IMG/VR virus record: IMGVR_UViG_3300028819_000052
Location: 1 to 32,764 of that record
Length of the DNA: 32,764 nucleotides
From: a virus
Direction: 5' to 3' (one strand)
Of the stretch, positions 1,401-30,172 are shown piece by piece (position 1 is the stretch's first letter; each line of letters begins with the position of its first letter). The translations under genes and the position numbers were made by a program. Below the pieces are notes generated by a model. The model saw only the letters and a program-made list of their open reading frames with translations, was not told the DNA's origin and made no database searches.

Positions 1401-2591
1401 TTAAGGAAGGAGGACGGGGGTTTTGCTGGTGGCATCGGCCCAGCGTTGGAGCGCCACCGCGACGTAGCCGCGATCAATCTCTATCGCGCGGCATCGTCGG
1501 CCGAGTTGCTCGCAGGCGATCAGAGTTGTACCGGAACCGGAGAATGGATCGTAAACGCAGCCCGTCGTGCAATTGCCGATCAGCATCCGAATCCAATCTA
1601 GCGGCTTGCTGTGTGAGTGCTCACCGTTTGCATGGGTTTGCGTGATTGGCTGCGCGAAAATATCAGCCAGATGTTTCCCGCGCGGGTCGGGTTTGAATAT
1701 GTAGCTTCCGCGAGAATTGAAAACCTCGCGCATTTCCCCCGCATCGCCGTAGTGCGCTCCGTCCATGTTGTATGTTTTTACGTCGCCAAACCACAAACAC
1801 AGTTTGCACTTTTTCAACGGACGCGACGGGGTGAACCAGCAAGACCCGCAGTCCCAAACAAACACCCACGCCGGTTTTCCGAACCTATCAACCATCTCCC
1901 CGCAATGCTGCGCATCGGTGAACGCCAATGTGCTCGCCAACGTAACCCTCTGCATTGCCGGAATTGCATTCCATTCAGGATCAAAAACCAGCGCGGAACA
2001 ATCCCCGACATCCACCCGCGCCACATCTTCAGCGTTCGTCGAGTCGCCGCAAAGCAGCCGATGCTCGCCAAGTTCCCAAAGTTGGCCGCGCGCCGTTTTC
2101 CATTTCTTTTGCAACTCGGCGATCTGGTCAATCTGCGGTTCCGCGTCGGCCACTGGCTCCGGCTCGACCACCTTCAAATCGACCAACTCATCGACGCTCA
2201 ATCCGGTGAGGTCCAAGCCGAGCTCGCCGTCCAGGTCCTCCTTGATGACCTTGGCCAATGCCTCGTCATCGAACTCAGCCATCTGCGGCAATTTGTTATC
2301 CGCGATCATGTGCGCGATTTCATCCGCGCGATTGGCGAAGTCCTGAAAATCCACCGGCACGGAAGTCCACCCTTGCGACTTCGCCGTCAGCCAAGCGCCG
2401 TGGCCCGTGACGATCAATCCCGTTTGATTCGAGACACAGATCGCTTTGCGCCAGCCCTGGTGCAGTAAAATTTTCGCGTAAAGCTCTAGCTGCTCCTTCG
2501 GGTGCTTGTTCGGATTCTCCGGATTCGGCTTCAGCTCCGCGACCGTCACGAGCGCGTCGTGCGCGCAATTGATGGGAGGAGAATCGGTCAT
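1401..2591 (-). CDS. ParB-N domain / DNA methyltransferase fusion
   Basis: This 396-residue protein has two parts. Residues 12-110 are a ParB/sulfiredoxin-like N domain (VAELKPNPENPNKHP, then GLIVTGHGAWLTAKSQGW and VPVDFQD). Residues 165-396 are a beta-class type DNA methyltransferase: the catalytic region comes first and the SAM-binding motif DPFSGSGTT comes near the C-terminus (about residues 357-365), with EIDRGYV after it. The catalytic tetrapeptide that is normally DPPY, DPPW or NPPY reads DPEW here (in LVFDPEWNAIP), which is unusual. Such fusions are common in phages and modify the phage's own DNA, often to escape host restriction. The start overlaps the upstream gene by ATGA (2588-2591), so translation is probably coupled. 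Confidence 0.85.
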   Translation of the reverse strand: MTDSPPINCAHDALVTVAELKPNPENPNKHPKEQLELYAKILLHQGWRKAICVSNQTGLIVTGHGAWLTAKSQGWTSVPVDFQDFANRADEIAHMIADNKLPQMAEFDDEALAKVIKEDLDGELGLDLTGLSVDELVDLKVVEPEPVADAEPQIDQIAELQKKWKTARGQLWELGEHRLLCGDSTNAEDVARVDVGDCSALVFDPEWNAIPAMQRVTLASTLAFTDAQHCGEMVDRFGKPAWVFVWDCGSCWFTPSRPLKKCKLCLWFGDVKTYNMDGAHYGDAGEMREVFNSRGSYIFKPDPRGKHLADIFAQPITQTHANGEHSHSKPLDWIRMLIGNCTTGCVYDPFSGSGTTLIACEQLGRRCRAIEIDRGYVAVALQRWADATSKTPVLLP

Positions 2592-3121
2592 GCGGTCAGG
2601 CCCAGCTCCTGGGCGATCGGCCGGATCATCTCCCTGAGTTTTTCGCGGCCTTCAGCCGGCCACTCGCCGAGCGGGTGCTTCGCGATGTAAGCGGTCAATT
2701 TGCCAATCCGGCTGATCGCCTCGAGGAAGGGAGGAAAACTCTTCGTGTTGCCGTCGGCGACGTCGTTGGGTTCAGCCGTGCACAACGCGAGCGCGGCGCG
2801 GAGACTCATGGCCTCGTCGAGTTTTTTCACCTGCCCCCAATTGGCGGCCACGCGCATGTAGGCGTTCGCGGTCCACTGCGTCACGAGCGGACATTGGATG
2901 CGCAGCCATTCACTCCACAGTCCATGCGGCATCGAGGCTTTGGCTTTCAGGAGCGCGTAACCTTGCAGCACCACCTCGCACATCCATTCCGAGGCGGCGT
3001 TCACCGTTTTGTGGCGATGTTCCTGGAGCGTTTTTTCGCGGTGATTGATCTCACGCGCGAGTTGATAGAGTTGATGTTGGTTGGCGGTTTTTGCGGGGGA
3101 GTTTGCGGGGGAGTTTTTCAT
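2588..3121 (-). CDS. DUF3102-like phage protein
   Basis: This protein has 177 residues. The middle resembles DUF3102 proteins: a long helix (EINHREKTLQEHRHKTVNAA) followed by LLKAKASMPHGLWSEWL and a TANAYMRVA segment, matching the family pattern of 'L-K-x-x-x-x-H-G-x-W-x-x-W' and then an 'A-x-x-Y-M' helix. The function of the family is not known; it occurs in phages and plasmids and looks DNA-binding or replication-associated. It overlaps the methyltransferase start by four bases and lies eight bases after its upstream neighbour, so all are likely on one leftward transcript. Confidence 0.6.
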   Translation of the reverse strand: MKNSPANSPAKTANQHQLYQLAREINHREKTLQEHRHKTVNAASEWMCEVVLQGYALLKAKASMPHGLWSEWLRIQCPLVTQWTANAYMRVAANWGQVKKLDEAMSLRAALALCTAEPNDVADGNTKSFPPFLEAISRIGKLTAYIAKHPLGEWPAEGREKLREMIRPIAQELGLTA

Positions 3122-3986: not shown

Positions 3987-4207
3987 GACGCCCCCTTCCA
4001 GATGATCGTTTGCAACCGCTCGCGAACGGCAGACAACCGCTCCGTGGCCTCGGTCAACCGGAGAAAAAAACGATCCCGATCCGCCTCCGATTTCAGGTCC
4101 GTGCCGAGGAACTCATCACTCAACTGCGCCAGTATCGCTTGGAGGCGCTGCAGGTCCGCGGCGACATTCAGGTATTCGGCCTCGGTTTCTGGATTGCGAT
4201 CGCTCAT
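3983..4207 (-). CDS. Small helical hypothetical protein (74 residues)
   Basis: The ATG at 4207 forms an ATGA overlap with the stop of the upstream gene, so I prefer it over a longer in-frame reading from 4303. The protein is acidic and almost wholly helical, with heptad-like leucines (LQRLQAILAQLSDEFLGTDL, then RFFLRLTEATERLSAVRERL), so a short coiled coil is likely. I do not recognise a family. Tight coupling on both sides (4204-4207 and 3983-3986) places it in the leftward replication operon. Confidence 0.55.
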   Translation of the reverse strand: MSDRNPETEAEYLNVAADLQRLQAILAQLSDEFLGTDLKSEADRDRFFLRLTEATERLSAVRERLQTIIWKGAS

Positions 4208-4428
4208 GGAGCGGATGACGCAGACGTCTGCGTGGGGGGCGGCGGCGCGATCCCGGCCAGCGCCTGCAGCTCGGCCAGGCGCGATTTTTCCACCACAAAA
4301 CAAAGCCCGGCGCGCGTGAACCAGACCCGCTCCGAATACGTCCAGAACGCCTCCTGCGCGTCGCGATTCAGCGCGGAGAAAACCAATCGGCTCACCTGCA
4401 TCAATCGTTGTTCGGTGCCAATTTTCAT
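4204..4428 (-). CDS. Hypothetical protein (74 residues) with a palindrome-encoded tail
   Basis: The ATG at 4428 overlaps the stop of the upstream gene as ATGA; a longer in-frame start exists at 4449. The body (MKIGTEQRLMQVSRLVFSAL, then FTRAGLCFVVEKSRLAEL) is not recognised. The last 14 residues (APPPPTQTSASSAP) are low-complexity and are partly encoded by a perfect 16-bp palindrome at 4218-4233. That palindrome recurs at two other places in the window, so the tail probably arose when the repeat inserted at the gene end. Confidence 0.5.
   Translation of the reverse strand: MKIGTEQRLMQVSRLVFSALNRDAQEAFWTYSERVWFTRAGLCFVVEKSRLAELQALAGIAPPPPTQTSASSAP
4218..4233. repeat. CGCAGACGTCTGCG palindrome, copy 1
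   Basis: This is a perfect 16-bp palindrome (ACGCAGACGTCTGCGT) inside the end of the 4204-4428 gene. Other copies are at 10850-10863 and 27904-27919. Confidence 0.8.
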
Positions 4429-5645
4429 AATTTTCCAGCCCGATGCCATGCGTTAAACAGTTTCACCGTATACCACAGATCGGCTCCCCAGCTCACGTCG
4501 GGCGTGAACCCCTCCTTGCACCGCGCTTCGCGATCCGCGAGCGCCGCTTCGATGACCTGCGACGGAATCTTGCGCACACAACACATCCGCCAGGCCGCTC
4601 CGAACCCCGCCATGTCCTCCGGCCCCACGTGCGCCGCGATCCGCTTCATCAGCTCCGCTTCCTTCGAGCGTTGAAACGTTGAACGTTGAACCGTTTCCTC
4701 ACTCCCCGATTTGGGGAGCGCCGGTACCGCCGGTACGTTCAACGTTAAACGTTCAACGTTTAAACGTTCCTGCGGGGGAGGGGGTGTGGGGGAGGGGGGC
4801 GACGCGGCGCGGCCCGCGGCGGTCCGACCCCCGTCATTTTCGACCCTCGCCCCAATTTGGGGCGACCTTCGTGGCGCGGTGCCCGCCCCAATTTGGGGCG
4901 GGCCAACCGCGTCGGGCTGAAGAGATGGGAGAGCGACCCTTTGTTTGCCGGAGCGGCTCTGCCCTATTGCTTGGGCATCAGCCGTTTGTTCCATCATCTC
5001 GCCACATTCCGATGGTCGAGCAGGACATGGTGACGGTCCTTCCGTCCCCCGCATTTTCGGGTCGTCTCCCGGCGCCAGGAGGTCTGCTTCCCCCGGCATT
5101 TTTTCCGTGCGTTCCCCAAATTGGGGAACGGGAAAATAGCAGCTCGCCCCAATTTGGGGCGACGTCTGGTTCACCCCAATTTGGGGTGCCGCCCCAATTT
5201 GGGGCGAGAAGATTTTTTGATCGCGTTTGAGCTGGTTCAAATCCTCCTGAATATCCGCCTTCGGCAACACCACGATCCGCGCCGCAGCCAGCGCCAGCGC
5301 CTCGGGCAATCCGGGCGCCTCCGTGCTGATGTCCAGCCTGGATTGATCCGGCCCGCGCTCCCAGGCGGACTCCCACACCGGCCACGGCCGCATCGCCCCG
5401 CGCCACAACGCGAACGGCTGCACCAAGATTTTGATACCCTCATCGATCCGCTGCACCACCGCGGCCCGAATCCGCTCGAGATCATTGCAAGCGGCGGCCA
5501 CGTGCTGCTCGGGGATTCCGGCCCGCACAGCCCACACCAGACGCGATGCCGGGCCGGCATCGCGAAAGGCGGCCGTGACGAGTTTTGCGGCGCGAGGTTT
5601 GAGCGGAAAATTCAGGACCTTGGTGAATTCTGGCATTTCGGCCAT
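4425..5645 (-). CDS. Probable phage replication protein with origin-like iterons inside the gene
   Basis: This 406-residue protein has three zones. Residues 1-150 are helical with an Arg-rich basic character and a predicted ADIQEDLNQLKRDQK helix. Residues 150-310 are low-complexity and contain repeated PQIGA/PQFGE motifs encoded by palindromes, plus ERLNVERLTLNV-type stretches. Residues 320-406 are a second globular part (ELMKRIAAHVGPEDMAGFG, ending WYTVKLFNAWHRAGKL). I recognise no family. Its place after a DnaA-domain-IV-like gene, the globular-linker-globular layout and the palindromes in the linker resemble lambda O, whose gene contains the phage origin. The replication role is therefore an inference. 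It starts three bases after the upstream gene ends and overlaps the next start by ATGA. Confidence 0.55.
   Translation of the reverse strand: MAEMPEFTKVLNFPLKPRAAKLVTAAFRDAGPASRLVWAVRAGIPEQHVAAACNDLERIRAAVVQRIDEGIKILVQPFALWRGAMRPWPVWESAWERGPDQSRLDISTEAPGLPEALALAAARIVVLPKADIQEDLNQLKRDQKIFSPQIGAAPQIGVNQTSPQIGASCYFPVPQFGERTEKMPGEADLLAPGDDPKMRGTEGPSPCPARPSECGEMMEQTADAQAIGQSRSGKQRVALPSLQPDAVGPPQIGAGTAPRRSPQIGARVENDGGRTAAGRAASPPSPTPPPPQERLNVERLTLNVPAVPALPKSGSEETVQRSTFQRSKEAELMKRIAAHVGPEDMAGFGAAWRMCCVRKIPSQVIEAALADREARCKEGFTPDVSWGADLWYTVKLFNAWHRAGKL
4702..5206. repeat. Seven palindromic iterons; candidate replication origin
   Basis: Palindromes with core CCCCAATTTGGGG lie at 4702-4718, 4848-4864, 4882-4902, 5110-5130, 5145-5161, 5172-5188 and 5190-5206. 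Their arms are 6-8 bp (CGCCCC, CTCCCC, CACCCC, CGTTCCCC and others) around a five-base A+T core. Arm changes are compensated on both sides, which suggests selection for the palindrome and not only for the encoded PQIGA peptide. Six share one orientation of the asymmetric core and the 5110 copy is inverted. I noticed none outside this gene. An AACGTT-rich repeat lies at 4669-4770. The origin function is inferred from the clustering and the neighbouring DnaA-like gene. Confidence 0.55.
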
Positions 5646-5648
5646 AAA

Positions 5649-6182
5649 TCAGTGGATTCTACGTCCGGCTGTGCTACGCTTGCAGCGGTCTCCGAACAGA
5701 GTCCGCTGGGGCGTCCCGCCGGTCGCCTTCAGTTTTGGGGGTGGTGTATCCACCCCCATTTTTGTGATTGCATCCCGCGCGCGCCGGGCGCGCAACGCCC
5801 GCTCAGCGGCCTTGGCAATCTCCGGCTCCTCGGCAAACACCAGCACCCGCAACCAAGTGACCGGCAGCTCCTCCACACGCTCACACTCGCGGAGCCGCTC
5901 CACCGTGCTCGCGAATTTTGAGTCCGTATCGATCCGATCCTGGACCGCGCGAAACCCATGCCCCACCGTTCCATGATGGAGACCGAACAACCGCGCAATC
6001 CGCGTCAGACTCCAGCCACGGTCCCGAAGCAAAATGAACAACGTCCAGCGCGCATCCACCACCTCGGGGAACTTGCGCCGAAGAAAAAGCTGGGACGCTT
6101 GGAGACCGAAGGCATAGGCGACCCGCGATAACTGTTGCTGCGTTATCGCGTCGAGCGACAGGACTGGATTGCGCCGGTTCAC
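5649..6182 (-). CDS. DnaA domain IV-like DNA-binding protein
   Basis: The central part resembles the DNA-binding domain IV of the replication initiator DnaA. The segment RKFPEVVDARWTLFILLRDR is followed by SLTRIARLFG, HHGTVGHGFR and AVQDRIDTDSKF. This matches the DnaA pattern of a basic 'R-x-x-A-x-x-L' helix, then 'L-x-x-I-G-x-x-F-G-x-R-x-H-T-T-V', then 'K-I-x-x'. No AAA+ ATPase domain is present, so it would bind DnaA-box-like DNA without ATP-driven opening. The GTG at 6182 (177 residues) is preferred because the in-frame GTG at 6275 would have its N-terminus encoded by palindromic mini-repeats. It lies three bases upstream of the iteron-bearing gene. Confidence 0.6.
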   Translation of the reverse strand: MNRRNPVLSLDAITQQQLSRVAYAFGLQASQLFLRRKFPEVVDARWTLFILLRDRGWSLTRIARLFGLHHGTVGHGFRAVQDRIDTDSKFASTVERLRECERVEELPVTWLRVLVFAEEPEIAKAAERALRARRARDAITKMGVDTPPPKLKATGGTPQRTLFGDRCKRSTAGRRIH

Positions 6183-6203
6183 ACAAGTCTTCGCCAGGGT
6201 AGC

Positions 6204-6244
6204 GCGGGCGACTCGCCCGCTCCGTTCGGCGACTCGCCGAACGG
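6204..6244. repeat. GGCGACTCGCC palindrome pair
   Basis: Two adjacent perfect-arm palindromes lie at 6204-6220 and 6222-6244, each centred on GACTC with G+C-rich arms. The same core with different outer arms occurs at 6548-6589, 13542-13560, 18764-18871, 20137-20176 and 29897-29937. Confidence 0.75.
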
Positions 6245-6293
6245 CTCCGCTGCTCGCGGACAGGTGAGGGGACACCCCCCCACCGAAATTCTT

Positions 6294-6530
6294 TCAGTTG
6301 CGTTGCGGCTTCGGCCCTGAGCCCGCAGGGTTGAGCGCAGACAACACCTCGCCCTGCTCCTCATCCTGCGCATCCCGCCGCGCGCACCAATCCCGGAGCG
6401 CCTGCTCACCCGTCGCGCCCGTGGCATCCACCACATGCTTGAGCGCGAGCGACAGCCGCGTGATGACAAACATCGGGAACGGATGATGCAACGCGCCGGC
6501 CAGATGCCGATTAAATTCCTCGGTGCTCAT
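6294..6530 (-). CDS. Hypothetical small protein (78 residues)
   Basis: The protein begins MSTEEFNRHLAGALHHPFPM and continues with a helical segment (RLSLALKHVVDATGATGEQA). It ends in a charged, proline-containing tail. I recognise no family. The ATG overlaps the upstream stop as ATGA at 6527-6530, a strong sign of a coupled real gene in the leftward operon. The gap to the next gene is filled by a palindrome pair and A+T-poor sequence. Confidence 0.55.
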   Translation of the reverse strand: MSTEEFNRHLAGALHHPFPMFVITRLSLALKHVVDATGATGEQALRDWCARRDAQDEEQGEVLSALNPAGSGPKPQRN

Positions 6531-7033
6531 GACGCCTCCCTGGGTAGCGCGACCGACTCGGTCGCCCTGTTCGGCGACTCGCCGAACAGCTCACCGCCCG
6601 CGCCGCCGTAGTTTGAACAGGAGGAAACAGAGGGAACAGAGACCTCCGTTATCTCCGTTTGCTCCTGTTCACCTTTGGGGGCGTTGGACGTTTCACGAGG
6701 GCCCCTTCTGACCCGACCGCCCCATTCCCGAAAATGTTTCAACCGCTCCGCGCTGCGGCAAATGTTCGAAGCGATCCCGATCTCCACAGCCAAATCCGCC
6801 GCCACTTGCGCGTGGGAAAGCCCGGAGCCGCGATCAAACCCTTTGCAGTAACCGTGCTCCTCATTCGTCGCGGCCCGCAAACAAATCAAAGCGAGACTCG
6901 AATTCCGATCGATCACCTTCAGTATGATCTGTCGATCGCTCATATCCGTGTGCGGCACCTGATACCCCTGATCGAGCAACTCATCCTCGTGCCCCTCGCA
7001 ACACCCCCACTTTGTTTTTTGGAATCGTTTCAT
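6527..7033 (-). CDS. Hypothetical protein (168 residues) with repeat-encoded C-terminus
   Basis: The ATG at 7033 overlaps the upstream stop as ATGA. Residues 1-120 look like a folded protein (MSDRQIILKVIDRNSSLALI, then SHAQVAADLAVEIGIASNIC and SAERLKHFREWGG) with five cysteines, but I recognise no family. Residues from about 121 onward are encoded by two different mini-repeats: an AACAGGAG-type inverted repeat at 6615-6670 and a GGCGACTCGCC pair at 6548-6589. The original stop was therefore probably lost when repeats entered the gene end. A regulatory or DNA-binding role is possible but not shown. Confidence 0.55.
   Translation of the reverse strand: MKRFQKTKWGCCEGHEDELLDQGYQVPHTDMSDRQIILKVIDRNSSLALICLRAATNEEHGYCKGFDRGSGLSHAQVAADLAVEIGIASNICRSAERLKHFREWGGRVRRGPRETSNAPKGEQEQTEITEVSVPSVSSCSNYGGAGGELFGESPNRATESVALPREAS
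6548..6589. repeat. GGCGACTCGCC palindrome pair inside a gene end
   Basis: Palindromes at 6548-6564 and 6567-6589 carry the same GACTC-centred design as the pair at 6204-6244. Both lie in the coding end of the 6527-7033 gene. Confidence 0.75.
6615..6670. repeat. AACAGGAG...CTCCTGTT inverted-repeat element
   Basis: This element of about 56 bp has ends GAACAGGAG and CTCCTGTTC and an interior of purine-rich GGAAACAGAGG and its complement. Related copies lie at 7060-7114, 19090-19146 and 28073-28140; half copies lie near 18553-18573 and 32724-32750. Confidence 0.7.
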
Positions 7034-11505: not shown

Positions 11506-11570
11506 GCGGAAGGAGCAGACGCCCTCCGTGTGAATCCGTGTAATCCGTGTCCAAAAACGAAAGGTAATCC

Positions 11571-13571
11571 ATGAATCAACTGATGAAGACCGGCGAAATA
11601 GAAACCTCAAAAACTCCAGGCCTGTCTGCCCCCCAGGCAGGCGTGCGCGGGGATGGGCAATGGACCATTGGTGATGCAGCCCAAAACACCAAACACCAAA
11701 CACCAAACACCAGAGAAACTCCAAAGGTTCAAACTCCAAACTCCGATGCGGTCGCGCGCGCCGCGATGCTGCCGTCGCCGCCCGACCGGCTGAAGCCGGG
11801 ACTCCAACCCAGCGCGGTCCCCGCGCCGGACAGGCTGAAGCCTGAACTCCCACTCCAGCCCAGCGCGAGTGAGAGTAAGAGCGGGCATACGACCGTCACG
11901 TGGATGCCGATCCAGGTGATCGCGCCGAGCAAGACCAATCCGCGGCGCACGTTTGATCCCGCCAAACTGAAGGAGCTCGCCGAGAGCGTGAAACTGCACG
12001 GTGTCCTGCAGCCGCTCCTCCTCCGGCCACTCGGGCCCTGGGCGAAGAACTTGATCCCGGGCGCCGAGTTGCTCGACGCCATGCGGCGGATGATGACAGG
12101 GGAGCGGAATCGGTTCGCTCCGGACGAACCGCTGTTCGAGATCGTCGTCGGCGAACGGCGCTGGCGCGCGGCGACGATGGCGGACCTGAAGGAAATCCCG
12201 GCGATCGTCCGCATCCTGGATGACAAGACCGTGCTCGAAATCCAGGTCATCGAGAATTTGCAGCGGGACGACCTCACGCCCATGGAAGAGGCCGAAGGGT
12301 ACGAGCGCCTCATCAAACAGCACGGCTACACCGCCGCGCGCATCGCCGAGAAGATCAGCCTGAGCAAAGAGTATGTCTATGCGCGGGTGAAGCTGACGAA
12401 TCTGTGCCCGGAGGGCCGGGCGGCGCTCGCCCAGGGCCACCTCACCACGGAGGTCGCGCTGTTGCTGGCCCGGCTGCCGACCCGGGAGCTGCAGGAGGAT
12501 GTGCTCGAGGAGGAGCCGATCGCCGGCGATGACCGCAATGGGCCGATGCCGGTGAAGCGGGTGCGCGAGTTGTTGCACCGGGAATACATGCTGCACTTGA
12601 AAACGGCCGCGTGGGACCTGGCGGATGCCGCGCTCTATCCGCCGGCCGGCCCGTGCAGCTCGTGCCCCAAGCGCACGATCAACGCGCGCGAGTTGTTCCC
12701 CGATGTGGGCAACGCAGACATCTGCACGGATCCCCGCTGCTTCAGGGGGAAACGGGAGGCCTGGGGGACACGCCAGCTCGCCGCGGCGCGCCTGGCCGGG
12801 CAGGAGGTGTTCGACGGGAAGGCGGCGGAGAAATTGTTCAGCACGTATTCATGGGAGAAAAACAGGCTGAAGGACGCCCGCTTCATCGATCTCTCGGATC
12901 GATGCGAGGCGCTCGGCTACGAGCACAAGCAGCATTGGAAGGGGACGCTGGGCCAGGGCTGTCCGAAACCGATCGTGGCGCTGGATCCGGAGGGGAAGGT
13001 GCGCGAGTTGTTGCGGCGGGACGATGCGCTCAAGGCGCTCAAGCAAGCGGGTAAGAAGCCGAAGGCGGCGACGACGTCGACCCGGGCTAATGATCGCTAC
13101 GCCCAAGAACAGCGCGAGCGGACGAAAAACAAACAGCGTCTGGCGTCGATCGCGCAGACGGCTGTCACGGCCGCGTTGCCCAAGGCAACGTCACTGGCGC
13201 TGGACCCGACGGCCACGCGCCACGAACAATTCTGGCGGTTGATGGCCCGGGCGGCTTATGACCGCACCGACATCGACACGCACGCCTTCATCGCCAAACG
13301 GCGCGGGCTCGCCGCGGTGCAGACCAAGGCGCGCGATGCGCTGCAGAAATGGCTCAAGGGCGATCCGAGTCCGGAAGAGTGCGAGGCGTTTGTCATCGAG
13401 TGCCTGGTGGGGGCGCGCTGGTGGGGCAGTTGGAGCTATGCGACGACGTCATTCGGCAAGGAGTTCAAGGAGTTCTGCGCGTTGGCGAAGGTGGACCTGG
13501 AATCGCTGGCCAAACAAAAGCCAACGAAGAAGACCAAAGCACACGGGCGGGTCGCCCGTGCCACCAAGTAA
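11571..13571 (+). CDS. Large ParB/Spo0J-like protein
   Basis: The 666-residue protein has a ParB-type core at about residues 105-275: VIAPSKTNPRRTFDPAKLKE and LAESVKLHGVLQPLLLRP, then the nucleotide-binding box EIVVGERRWRAATMADLKEI, VIENLQRDDLTPMEEAEGYE and a helix-turn-helix GYTAARIAEKISLSKEYVYA. A cysteine cluster follows (CSSCPKRTINARELF, then CTDPRCFRGKREAW), and a long C-terminal region is typical of plasmid/phage ParB-like proteins of this group. No ParA is visible. About 90 N-terminal residues are encoded by host-type repeats (TKHQTPNTRETPK, DRLKPGLQPSA) and the last residues (HGRVARATK) by a palindromic repeat. It could help maintain an extrachromosomal prophage or regulate genes. Confidence 0.75.
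   Translation: MNQLMKTGEIETSKTPGLSAPQAGVRGDGQWTIGDAAQNTKHQTPNTRETPKVQTPNSDAVARAAMLPSPPDRLKPGLQPSAVPAPDRLKPELPLQPSASESKSGHTTVTWMPIQVIAPSKTNPRRTFDPAKLKELAESVKLHGVLQPLLLRPLGPWAKNLIPGAELLDAMRRMMTGERNRFAPDEPLFEIVVGERRWRAATMADLKEIPAIVRILDDKTVLEIQVIENLQRDDLTPMEEAEGYERLIKQHGYTAARIAEKISLSKEYVYARVKLTNLCPEGRAALAQGHLTTEVALLLARLPTRELQEDVLEEEPIAGDDRNGPMPVKRVRELLHREYMLHLKTAAWDLADAALYPPAGPCSSCPKRTINARELFPDVGNADICTDPRCFRGKREAWGTRQLAAARLAGQEVFDGKAAEKLFSTYSWEKNRLKDARFIDLSDRCEALGYEHKQHWKGTLGQGCPKPIVALDPEGKVRELLRRDDALKALKQAGKKPKAATTSTRANDRYAQEQRERTKNKQRLASIAQTAVTAALPKATSLALDPTATRHEQFWRLMARAAYDRTDIDTHAFIAKRRGLAAVQTKARDALQKWLKGDPSPEECEAFVIECLVGARWWGSWSYATTSFGKEFKEFCALAKVDLESLAKQKPTKKTKAHGRVARATK
13542..13560. repeat. 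GGGCGGGTCGCCC palindrome at a gene end
   Basis: CACGGGCGGGTCGCCCGTG is a member of the GGCGASTCGCC family. It encodes the last residues of the ParB-like protein. Confidence 0.7.
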
Positions 13572-18763: not shown

Positions 18764-18871
18764 ACAGGCGACTCGCCTGTTATCATCGGCGACTCGCCGA
18801 TGATTTGTGGCGCGTGCGGTGCCTCATGCTTTTGGGCGAGTCGCCCAAAAGATCGGGCGGGTCGCCCGATC
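18764..18871. terminator. Four-hairpin cluster at the convergent gene boundary
   Basis: Perfect palindromes at 18764-18780, 18782-18804, 18829-18851 and 18851-18871 share the GGCGASTCGCC core with different arms. They lie between the plus-strand end (18625) and the minus-strand end (18877). CTTTTGGGCGAGTCGCCCAAAAG (18829-18851) has T- and A-rich ends and could terminate in both directions. The terminator role is inferred. Confidence 0.45.
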
Positions 18872-18876
18872 TACCC

Positions 18877-19402: not shown

Positions 19403-19441
19403 AGTGCAGTGATCAGTAATCAGTGGGGGCAGTGATCAGTG
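19402..19441. repeat. CAGTGATCAGTAATCAGT-type tandem repeat
   Basis: Short tandem copies of CAGTRATCAGT fill this gene boundary. Other arrays lie at 27299-27352, 29704-29757, 29878-29896 and 30082-30172. Confidence 0.7.
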
Positions 19442-19726
19442 GGGAACGGCGCTGAGGATCGCGGCGACGTGCCGGAGGATCTCCACGGTGTTCGTGCTCG
19501 AGCTGTTCTCGGTCAGGCCGGCCAGCGTCAGGCCCTGGGTTTTGTCCGTGGTGCTGGCGCGGAGTTTGGCCAGGTCCGAGTGCGCATCCCAAAAAGTGGT
19601 CACGGCGATTTTGGTGACGCGCTGCGTCCCGTCGGGCGCGGTCTCCACCTGGCGACTCGAGAGATGCGCGCAGCCGCTTGCGGCCGCGAACAGGCTCAAG
19701 AGACACAAAAGAGAAGTTCGCTTCAT
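19436..19726 (-). CDS. Small lipoprotein (96 residues)
   Basis: The N-terminus MKRTSLLCLLSLFAAASGCA is a lipoprotein signal: basic start, hydrophobic stretch and a lipobox ending in A-S-G-C, with Cys19 as the lipidated residue. The mature part (HLSSRQVETAPDGTQRVTKI and on) is polar. Located between two holin-like proteins, it resembles the outer-membrane spanin (Rz1-like) position, but it is longer than Rz1 and lacks a proline-rich stretch. An alternative is an exclusion lipoprotein. Confidence 0.55.
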   Translation of the reverse strand: MKRTSLLCLLSLFAAASGCAHLSSRQVETAPDGTQRVTKIAVTTFWDAHSDLAKLRASTTDKTQGLTLAGLTENSSSTNTVEILRHVAAILSAVPH

Positions 19727-20136: not shown

Positions 20137-20176
20137 TTCTCGGCGGGTCGCCGAGAAGGACAGGCGAGTCGCCTGT
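20137..20176. repeat. GGCGASTCGCC palindrome pair
   Basis: Palindromes at 20137-20157 and 20160-20176 lie just after the end of the tail fibre gene and may act as a transcript-processing or attenuation hairpin. Confidence 0.65.
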
Positions 20177-27298: not shown

Positions 27299-27352
27299 GG
27301 TCAGTAATCAGTAATCAGTAATCAGTCGGTCAGTCGGTCAGTGATCAGTCAT
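27299..27352. repeat. CAGTAATCAGT tandem array
   Basis: Four or more copies of TCAGTAATCAG and related TCAGTCGG units lie between the tape measure gene and the preceding gene. Confidence 0.7.
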
Positions 27353-29703: not shown

Positions 29704-29757
29704 GGCAGTGATCAGTAATCAGTAATCAGTGGTCAGTAATCAGTGATCAGTCGTCAG
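29704..29757. repeat. CAGTAATCAGT tandem array
   Basis: Six or so CAGTRATCAGT units lie between genes; the end overlaps the stop of the 41-residue membrane protein gene. Confidence 0.7.
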
Positions 29758-29872
29758 TGGGGCGGCGTCGGCGGCGGCGGCGGGTCAGCGTGAGGGATTC
29801 GCGGCAGAGCGCGACCCATAACACCAGGCTGAGGTATGCCACTGTGCCGAGGATGATCCAGATACTGTCCAT
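29747..29872 (-). CDS. Tiny membrane protein with polyarginine tail (41 residues)
   Basis: The peptide reads MDSIWIILGTVAYLSLVLWV, then ALCRESLTLT, an Arg-only stretch of eight residues with one Thr before it, and PTDD. It has one membrane span with a strongly basic cytoplasmic tail. The stop codon is formed by the CAGT-type repeat. The gene is small but the span is clear. The function is unknown; the arginine run might bind nucleic acid or lipid head groups. Confidence 0.5.
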   Translation of the reverse strand: MDSIWIILGTVAYLSLVLWVALCRESLTLTRRRRRRRPTDD

Positions 29873-29883
29873 TTGGGCAGTAT

Positions 29884-30081
29884 TCAGTGGTCAGTGCTGT
29901 TCGGCGAGTCGCCGAACAGGACGGGCGAGTCGCCCGTGCCACCCAGGAGTTTGCGGACCATGGCGAGCCGGTCGGCGGGGGAGGCGTTCGGGAAAAACTT
30001 CGCGGCGTAGAGATCGAGGTCCTCGGCGGTGAGCGTGGGTCGCGCTGCGGCATGCGGACCGTCCGGGTGGTAGGCGCTCAT
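29884..30081 (-). CDS. Small hypothetical protein (65 residues) with palindrome-encoded tail
   Basis: The protein reads MSAYHPDGPHAAARPTLTAE, then DLDLYAAKFFPNASPADRLA and MVRKLLGG. The body is helical and looks real; no family is recognised. The last 17 residues (TGDSPVLFGDSPNSTDH) are encoded by two GGCGASTCGCC palindromes (29897-29937), so the original stop has been displaced. It lies downstream of the 109-residue gene in a stretch usually holding tail assembly genes; it could be a small tail chaperone. Confidence 0.5.
   Translation of the reverse strand: MSAYHPDGPHAAARPTLTAEDLDLYAAKFFPNASPADRLAMVRKLLGGTGDSPVLFGDSPNSTDH
29897..29937. repeat. GGCGASTCGCC palindrome pair in a gene end
   Basis: Palindromes at 29897-29919 and 29921-29937 encode the tail of the 29884-30081 protein. 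Confidence 0.75.
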
Positions 30082-30172
30082 TTCAGTCAGTAATCAGTGT
30101 TCAGTAATCAGTAATCAGTGATCAGTGGTCAGTGGTCTGATCTGATTACTGCCCACTGATAACTGATCACTC
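30082..30172. repeat. CAGTAATCAGT tandem array with inverted copies
   Basis: Repeated TCAGTAATCAGTG units run in one direction, followed by complementary TGATTACTG and TGATAACTGATCAC units, giving a hairpin of about 90 bp between two late genes. Confidence 0.7.

Follow-up and report, generated by a model that had tools for sequence, protein, structure and literature searches.

A confined array of compensated palindromes in a phage gene, a candidate lambda-like replication origin

A virus record of 32,764 bases (32.8 kb), analysed here over its whole length and referred to as the window, carries, between positions 4702 and 5206, seven palindromes built around CCCC-[AG]A[AT]TT-GGGG, all of them inside one 406-codon gene. 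We propose that these palindromes are the iterons of a phage replication origin that follows the lambda O design and lies within an early replication gene, and we put the probability of this reading at roughly 0.6. It is the best supported explanation of the array, which is confined to its gene, lies next to a DnaA-domain-IV-like gene, is constrained at the DNA level, and belongs to a class of sites that recurs in the initiator genes of other phages. Matches to a terminase small subunit, an integrase, a ParB-like protein, a ParB-methylase and a tape-measure protein indicate that the window derives from a temperate phage.

The palindrome array and its gene

A previous reading of the sequence alone had placed seven palindromes at 4702–5206 within one gene, and all seven are present there. 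Every match to CCCCN5GGGG in the window is an array site (7 of 7, within 505 bp of a single gene), while 100 shuffles of the window gave a mean of 1.21 matches and a maximum of 5. The array palindrome, which can also be written CCCCRAWTTGGGG, appears as CCCCAATTTGGGG on the + strand at five sites, as its reverse at one (5114) and as CCCCGATTTGGGG at one (4704). Two 21-mers inside the array are identical. The features of the region are as follows.

4425–5645, minus strand: P0001, the 406-codon gene holding the array; its C-terminal part is kept in a relative, L007
4669–4769, no strand assigned: a further kind of repeat, AACGTTNAACGTT, also in the linker, with all five of its window matches here; 60% A+T 40-mer
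4702–4718, no strand assigned: imperfect palindrome (site 1), CTCCCCGATTTGGGGAG; in another frame (PKSG) and damaged in L007
4847–4865, no strand assigned: palindrome TCGCCCCAATTTGGGGCGA, encoding SPQIGA
4881–4903, no strand assigned: palindrome GCCCGCCCCAATTTGGGGCGGGC, encoding PPQIGA
5110–5130, no strand assigned: palindrome CGTTCCCCAAATTGGGGAACG, encoding VPQFGE
5144–5162, no strand assigned: palindrome TCGCCCCAATTTGGGGCGA, encoding SPQIGA
5172–5188, no strand assigned: palindrome CACCCCAATTTGGGGTG, encoding APQIGV
5190–5206, no strand assigned: palindrome CGCCCCAATTTGGGGCG, encoding SPQIGA
5206–5245, no strand assigned: A+T-rich 40-mer, candidate unwinding element (60% A+T versus 37% for the gene)
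5649–6275, minus strand: P0004, the gene upstream of P0001, whose product carries a helix-turn-helix resembling DnaA domain IV; its length is 208 codons if read from the first start and 177 if read from a GTG at 6182

The candidate unwinding element abuts the four-site cluster and is among the A+T-richest 40-mers of the 406-codon gene. The tandem AACGTTNAACGTT repeats at 4669–4769 are themselves A+T-rich and may be part of the origin.

The protein encoded by P0001 is predicted to consist of a helical N-terminal part (residues 1–145, low confidence), a disordered linker (approximately 146–315) and a helical C-terminal part (316–406), so that the palindromes, at about codons 147–315, fall in the linker. 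Searches of P0001 against PHROG, whole or in parts, gave no match up to E = 2, and Pfam gave none under E = 0.1 and no helix-turn-helix match, the N-terminal part included; an N-terminal winged helix of the Phage_rep_O or HTH_36 type was thus recognised by neither resource. The full-length structure model was poor (pLDDT 44), and searching BFVD and PDB with a model of the C-terminal part (four-helix, pLDDT 72.7) returned nothing below E = 2.

When viral_contigs was searched with P0001, with its last 74 residues and with a 177-residue protein (2588–3121), one contig only was retrieved (3300043313_002270, carried in our lists as L007, L077 and L079). Searching P0001 against 50,697 phage records with tblastn gave no match, and the array DNA gave weak, short matches only among phages and plasmids. 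The C-terminal part of P0001 is 94% identical in L007, and the 115 shared codons differ by 11 synonymous and 7 non-synonymous changes, which suggests, on sequence grounds, that this part is under purifying selection and that the gene is real. Because the L007 contig starts within the P0001 gene, at the array boundary, six of the sites lie outside its view; only the weak site 1 is visible, and it is damaged.

Constraint acts on the DNA rather than on the peptide

The arms of the palindromes co-vary, as had been proposed from the sequence alone. Summed over the seven sites, 21 base pairs extend beyond the 13-bp core before the first mismatch, whereas 200,000 draws from elsewhere in the gene gave at most 19 (mean outer pairing there, 0.38 per position). 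The first outer position is paired at all seven sites, by T-A, G-C or A-T pairs. Permutation of the right-hand flanks among the sites gave p = 0.009, 0.005 and 0.002 for one, two and three outer positions, and p = 0.016, 0.008 and 0.005 when one of the two identical 21-mers was dropped. Arm compensation is therefore real but of moderate strength (p 0.002–0.016).

The 406-codon gene contains eight odd-centre palindromes with arms of at least 8, whereas 2000 synonymous-codon shuffles gave a mean of 0.19 and a maximum of 3. Six of the eight are array sites; the remaining two are an AACGTT palindrome and a palindrome at 5542–5564. Since shuffling synonymous codons destroys the palindromes, the DNA, and not the peptide, carries the pattern. 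The P0001 gene also contains 11 stem-loops against a null mean of 3.25, a count matched by none of 40 shuffles.

These results make it very improbable that the repeats are kept for a PQIGA peptide, as a linker motif, with the palindromes arising as a side effect. The in-frame PQIGA and PQFGE peptides noticed earlier do exist, and six sites out of seven specify PQ[IF]G in a common frame; yet at site 4704 the palindrome is kept in a different frame and encodes PKSG. In addition, the residues that precede PQ[IF]G (S, A, V, P) and those that follow it (A, V, E) vary while the arms stay complementary.

A DnaA-domain-IV-like neighbor and comparison with known origins

Adjacency of the array gene to a DnaA-domain-IV-like gene was likewise claimed from the sequence, and the adjacency holds. 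P0004 matches the PHROG annotated as 'DnaA-like replication initiation' (E 4.8e-4); its Bac_DnaA_C match (E 4.9e-6, 26.9 bits) falls below the Pfam cut-off of 31.5 bits. With a weak domain-IV match alone and no AAA+ match, P0004 is not counted as a DnaA. The 177-residue protein of the earlier reading is probably this gene read from the GTG at 6182, a start that puts a repeat pair at 6204–6244 outside the gene (counted by hand). A search of viral_contigs with the P0004 protein gave no match, and EBPR podovirus 2 (JF412295) is the only phage record that matched P0004, its gp7 being 37% identical over 63 aa.

The array recalls the lambda origin, in which the annotated iterons lie inside the O gene (39034–39118 of J02459). 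In both cases inverted repeats consisting of a C-run, an A+T centre and a G-run are reiterated in the part of a replication gene that encodes the protein's linker, and the spacing of 18–36 bp within the array clusters compares with 20–24 bp in lambda. Lambda iteron 3 reads ATCCCTCAAATTGGGGGAT, with the core CCCTCAAATTGGGGG, so this plan is not foreign to phage origins, and an iteron type first regarded as unfamiliar proves to be close to lambda's own. The two systems differ in that P0001 lacks a Phage_rep_O domain, that the array spreads its seven sites over 505 bp, as two clusters and a single site, that six of its palindromes are perfect whereas those of lambda are imperfect, that the A+T flank is 60% at the array versus 78% beside lambda iteron 4, and that a DnaA-IV-like gene lies beside the array. 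By analogy, the best reading is that the array would work like lambda ori, although, judged by its protein domain, P0001 does not qualify as a member of the lambda O family.

EBPR podovirus 2 shares the gene order: the DnaA-IV-like gp7 is directly followed by gp8, which carries a repeat array in mid-gene. The gp8 repeats, unlike those of P0001, are 14-bp direct repeats resembling AAACCCGGAAYGA and not palindromes. Furthermore, gp8 has an HTH_36 domain and a PHROG initiator ('replication initiation') match, neither of which P0001 has, and shows no similarity to P0001. Wider synteny between the two phages was unsupported by BLAST: the methylases did not match, and the terminase small subunits gave E = 0.005 over 32 residues.

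The same class of sites in other phages

A scan of viral_contigs for doublets, defined as two CCCCNAWTNGGGG sites 2–32 bp apart, returned 17 stretches besides the window. Five of these doublets lie inside initiator genes recognised by Pfam (Phage_rep_O or HTH_36) together with PHROGs, namely in L082 (Phage_rep_O, E 3.7e-22) and in L084, L092, L094 and L095 (HTH_36, E 5e-7 to 2.1e-9). They represent four lineages, as L094 and L095 look homologous. These IMG/VR genes resemble P0001 in having at least two CCCC-NAWTN-GGGG palindromes in the initiator linker, mostly encoding P-x-x-G; they differ from it in their recognisable Phage_rep_O or HTH_36 domain and in having fewer sites of the class. In L059, the doublet precedes an initiator gene by about 740 bp, and that gene is followed by one for a DnaB-like helicase. 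The other 11 doublets are neither in nor near a recognised initiator gene: three (L081, L088 and L089) are in one Eco57I-type methylase gene, one (L090) is in a short ORF with no family above the cut-off, and seven (L058, L083, L085, L086, L087, L091 and L093) have no gene assignment, the longest ORF of L083 having been searched against families and giving no match. The methylase sites are 15-bp tandem CCCCGATTAGGGGTT units in two or three copies (L081, 3821–3848; L088, 880–922; L089, 2112–2154), the copy number differing among the three contigs.

Doublets of reverse polarity (GGGGNAWTNCCCC) were found in 12 stretches: one in a PHROG initiator gene (L099), seven in one unassigned gene family, one in an unassigned gene (L106) and three elsewhere. 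This set was rejected as a negative control, with one doublet in an initiator gene and seven in a single gene family, and it suggests that base order in the palindrome is without importance. The seven genes (L097, L098, L100, L101, L103, L105 and L107) encode proteins of about 298 residues with GGGGGATTCCCCC-like palindrome doublets in the linker and the same domain-linker-domain look; L097 and L101 are the two that were searched against families. We regard these genes as candidate unrecognised initiators. No helicase was evident by eye among their neighbors, a profile comparison with P0001 gave a probability of 0.4%, and BLAST showed no similarity of the L101 protein to the protein encoded ahead of DnaB in Akkermansia phage Chantilly.

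A general excess of palindromes in phage initiator genes was expected and was not found. In a sample of 19 named-phage initiator genes (lambda, EBPR podovirus 2, 16 of the 255 records matching gp8 and one of the two matching the L094 protein), only five had a stem-loop excess that at most 4 of 40 shuffles reached: lambda, Vibrio D75, Gordonia Dardanus, Mycobacterium Krakatau and cyanophage KBS-S-2A. Such arrays are therefore not general. The excess in P0001 exceeds that of all 19 genes, P0001 also being the longest gene.

Integrase comparisons linked the window to Akkermansia phages, which accounted for three of the four matches among phage records (24–27% identity). On the basis of these matches and of repeat words that we presume to point to Verrucomicrobiota, a host in this phylum is our guess. 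No palindrome array was seen in the candidate initiator genes of Akkermansia phages Chantilly and Chambord (the latter in part), and neither the integrase nor a GGCGACTCGCC repeat pair of the window had a match among plasmids.

Other repeats in the window and alternative explanations

Confinement to one gene applies to the array family but not to compensated palindromes at large, which also occur in other families spread over the window. GGCGACTCGCC-type palindromes form pairs at 6204–6244, 6549–6589, 18764–18872, 20137–20176 and 29897–29937 and occur also at 13542–13560; their arms are compensated (CGGGCGACTCGCCCG, CGACCGACTCGGTCG, GTTCGGCGACTCGCCGAAC), the members of a pair lie approximately 18–24 bp apart, and judged by their sequence the pairs are a REP-like dispersed repeat. 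A further palindrome, (A)CGCAGACGTCTGCG(T), has three copies (4218, 10850 and 27904), one of them also present in L007 near its position 575, and arrays of a CAGTAATCAGTGAT-like 7-bp word lie in the right half of the window at 19414–19444, 27301–27350, 29706–29759 and 30087–30134. Short tandem repeats (TCCGTGTGAA, AAACACC) at 11525–11550 and 11684–11712, before or at the start of the ParB-like gene, lie near the cumulative GC skew minimum and are candidates for a partition site or a rival origin.

Rickettsia palindromic elements are inserted in frame within genes, and the array could similarly be a dispersed palindromic repeat of host or phage, REP-like or of the Rickettsia type, multiplied in a tolerant disordered linker with no role in replication. 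We consider this unlikely, though it is the main alternative. The window holds other dispersed, partly paired palindrome families: at least three others, compensated or perfect, are scattered over it (the GGCGACTCGCC type with 12 copies in six pairs plus the copy at 13542, ACGCAGACGTCTGCGT with three and the GGCTGAAGCC type with three). The two identical 21-mers are what a recent duplication would leave, and the six PQ[IF]G-encoding sites are all in the same frame. In genome_contigs, moreover, CCCCAATTTGGGG doublets occur in 17 stretches, 13 of them from cyanobacterial assemblies; their flanks give them the look of repeat elements, and in the four stretches whose ORFs were listed no doublet falls in a replication gene. 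The array family nonetheless differs from the other families of the window in that all seven copies are in one gene and none is in the rest of the window, a count that covers the phage only. Single GCCCCAATTTGGGGC sites occur in 50 stretches of the viral contigs, about the estimated chance level for a 15-mer, and none has a second core site nearby. Where doublets fall in recognised phage genes, these are initiator genes in five contigs versus one methylase gene in three.

An array of regulator-bound operators, or of transcript hairpins that slow or end transcription of an early operon, is an improbable explanation. Compensated arms would keep hairpin potential while the sequence varies, one site (5144–5162) scores as terminator-like on the coding strand, and another extends by eye into a longer imperfect hairpin around 5105–5136. 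Against this, the other six sites are not terminator-like, the count of four for the region is close to that of shuffles (mean 2.4), the sites lie in mid-gene, and the link to initiator genes elsewhere would be left unexplained.

For the origin reading, the proposal of iterons within an initiator gene gains from confinement, DNA-level constraint and recurrence in initiator genes; it is weakened by the lack of a known initiator family or fold in P0001 and by the GC skew, whose cumulative minimum lies near 12 kb and not around 5 kb, which argues against an origin at the array. The stretch 4001–6700 contains no DnaA box when up to one mismatch is allowed, and no DnaB-like or helicase-loader gene was recognised among the window proteins searched, a subset of the ORFs.

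Proposed mechanism and implications

Based on these findings, we propose a plausible mechanism for an origin at the array. A dimeric phage protein, either P0001 or the DnaA-domain-IV-like protein, would bind each palindrome, with the four-site cluster at 5110–5206 serving as the core and the pair at 4847–4903 and the weak site at 4702 as auxiliary sites. The protein–palindrome complex would distort the DNA and might open the A+T-rich DNA next to it. Helicase recruitment may then be aided by the helical C-terminal part of P0001.

Tentatively, and with rather less confidence than we place in the origin itself, we suggest that P0001 founds a new family of phage initiators or replisome organisers without a recognisable winged helix, in which a lambda-style origin of perfect compensated palindromes lies in the protein's own gene and a DnaA-domain-IV-like protein acts as partner, in phages that may infect Verrucomicrobiota. 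No description of the array appeared among the literature listed on phage origins with intragenic iterons, on palindromic elements and on dispersed palindromes of Verrucomicrobia (PMC7466680 and PMC5043065 included).

If the origin reading is right, a lambda-type origin would lie in a gene whose product shows no known initiator fold, in a phage group for which we found no replication study. Arrays of C-run/A+T/G-run palindromes in gene linkers may then flag initiators and origins that profile searches miss, and the array would allow the reason for co-variation in iteron arms to be tested cleanly.
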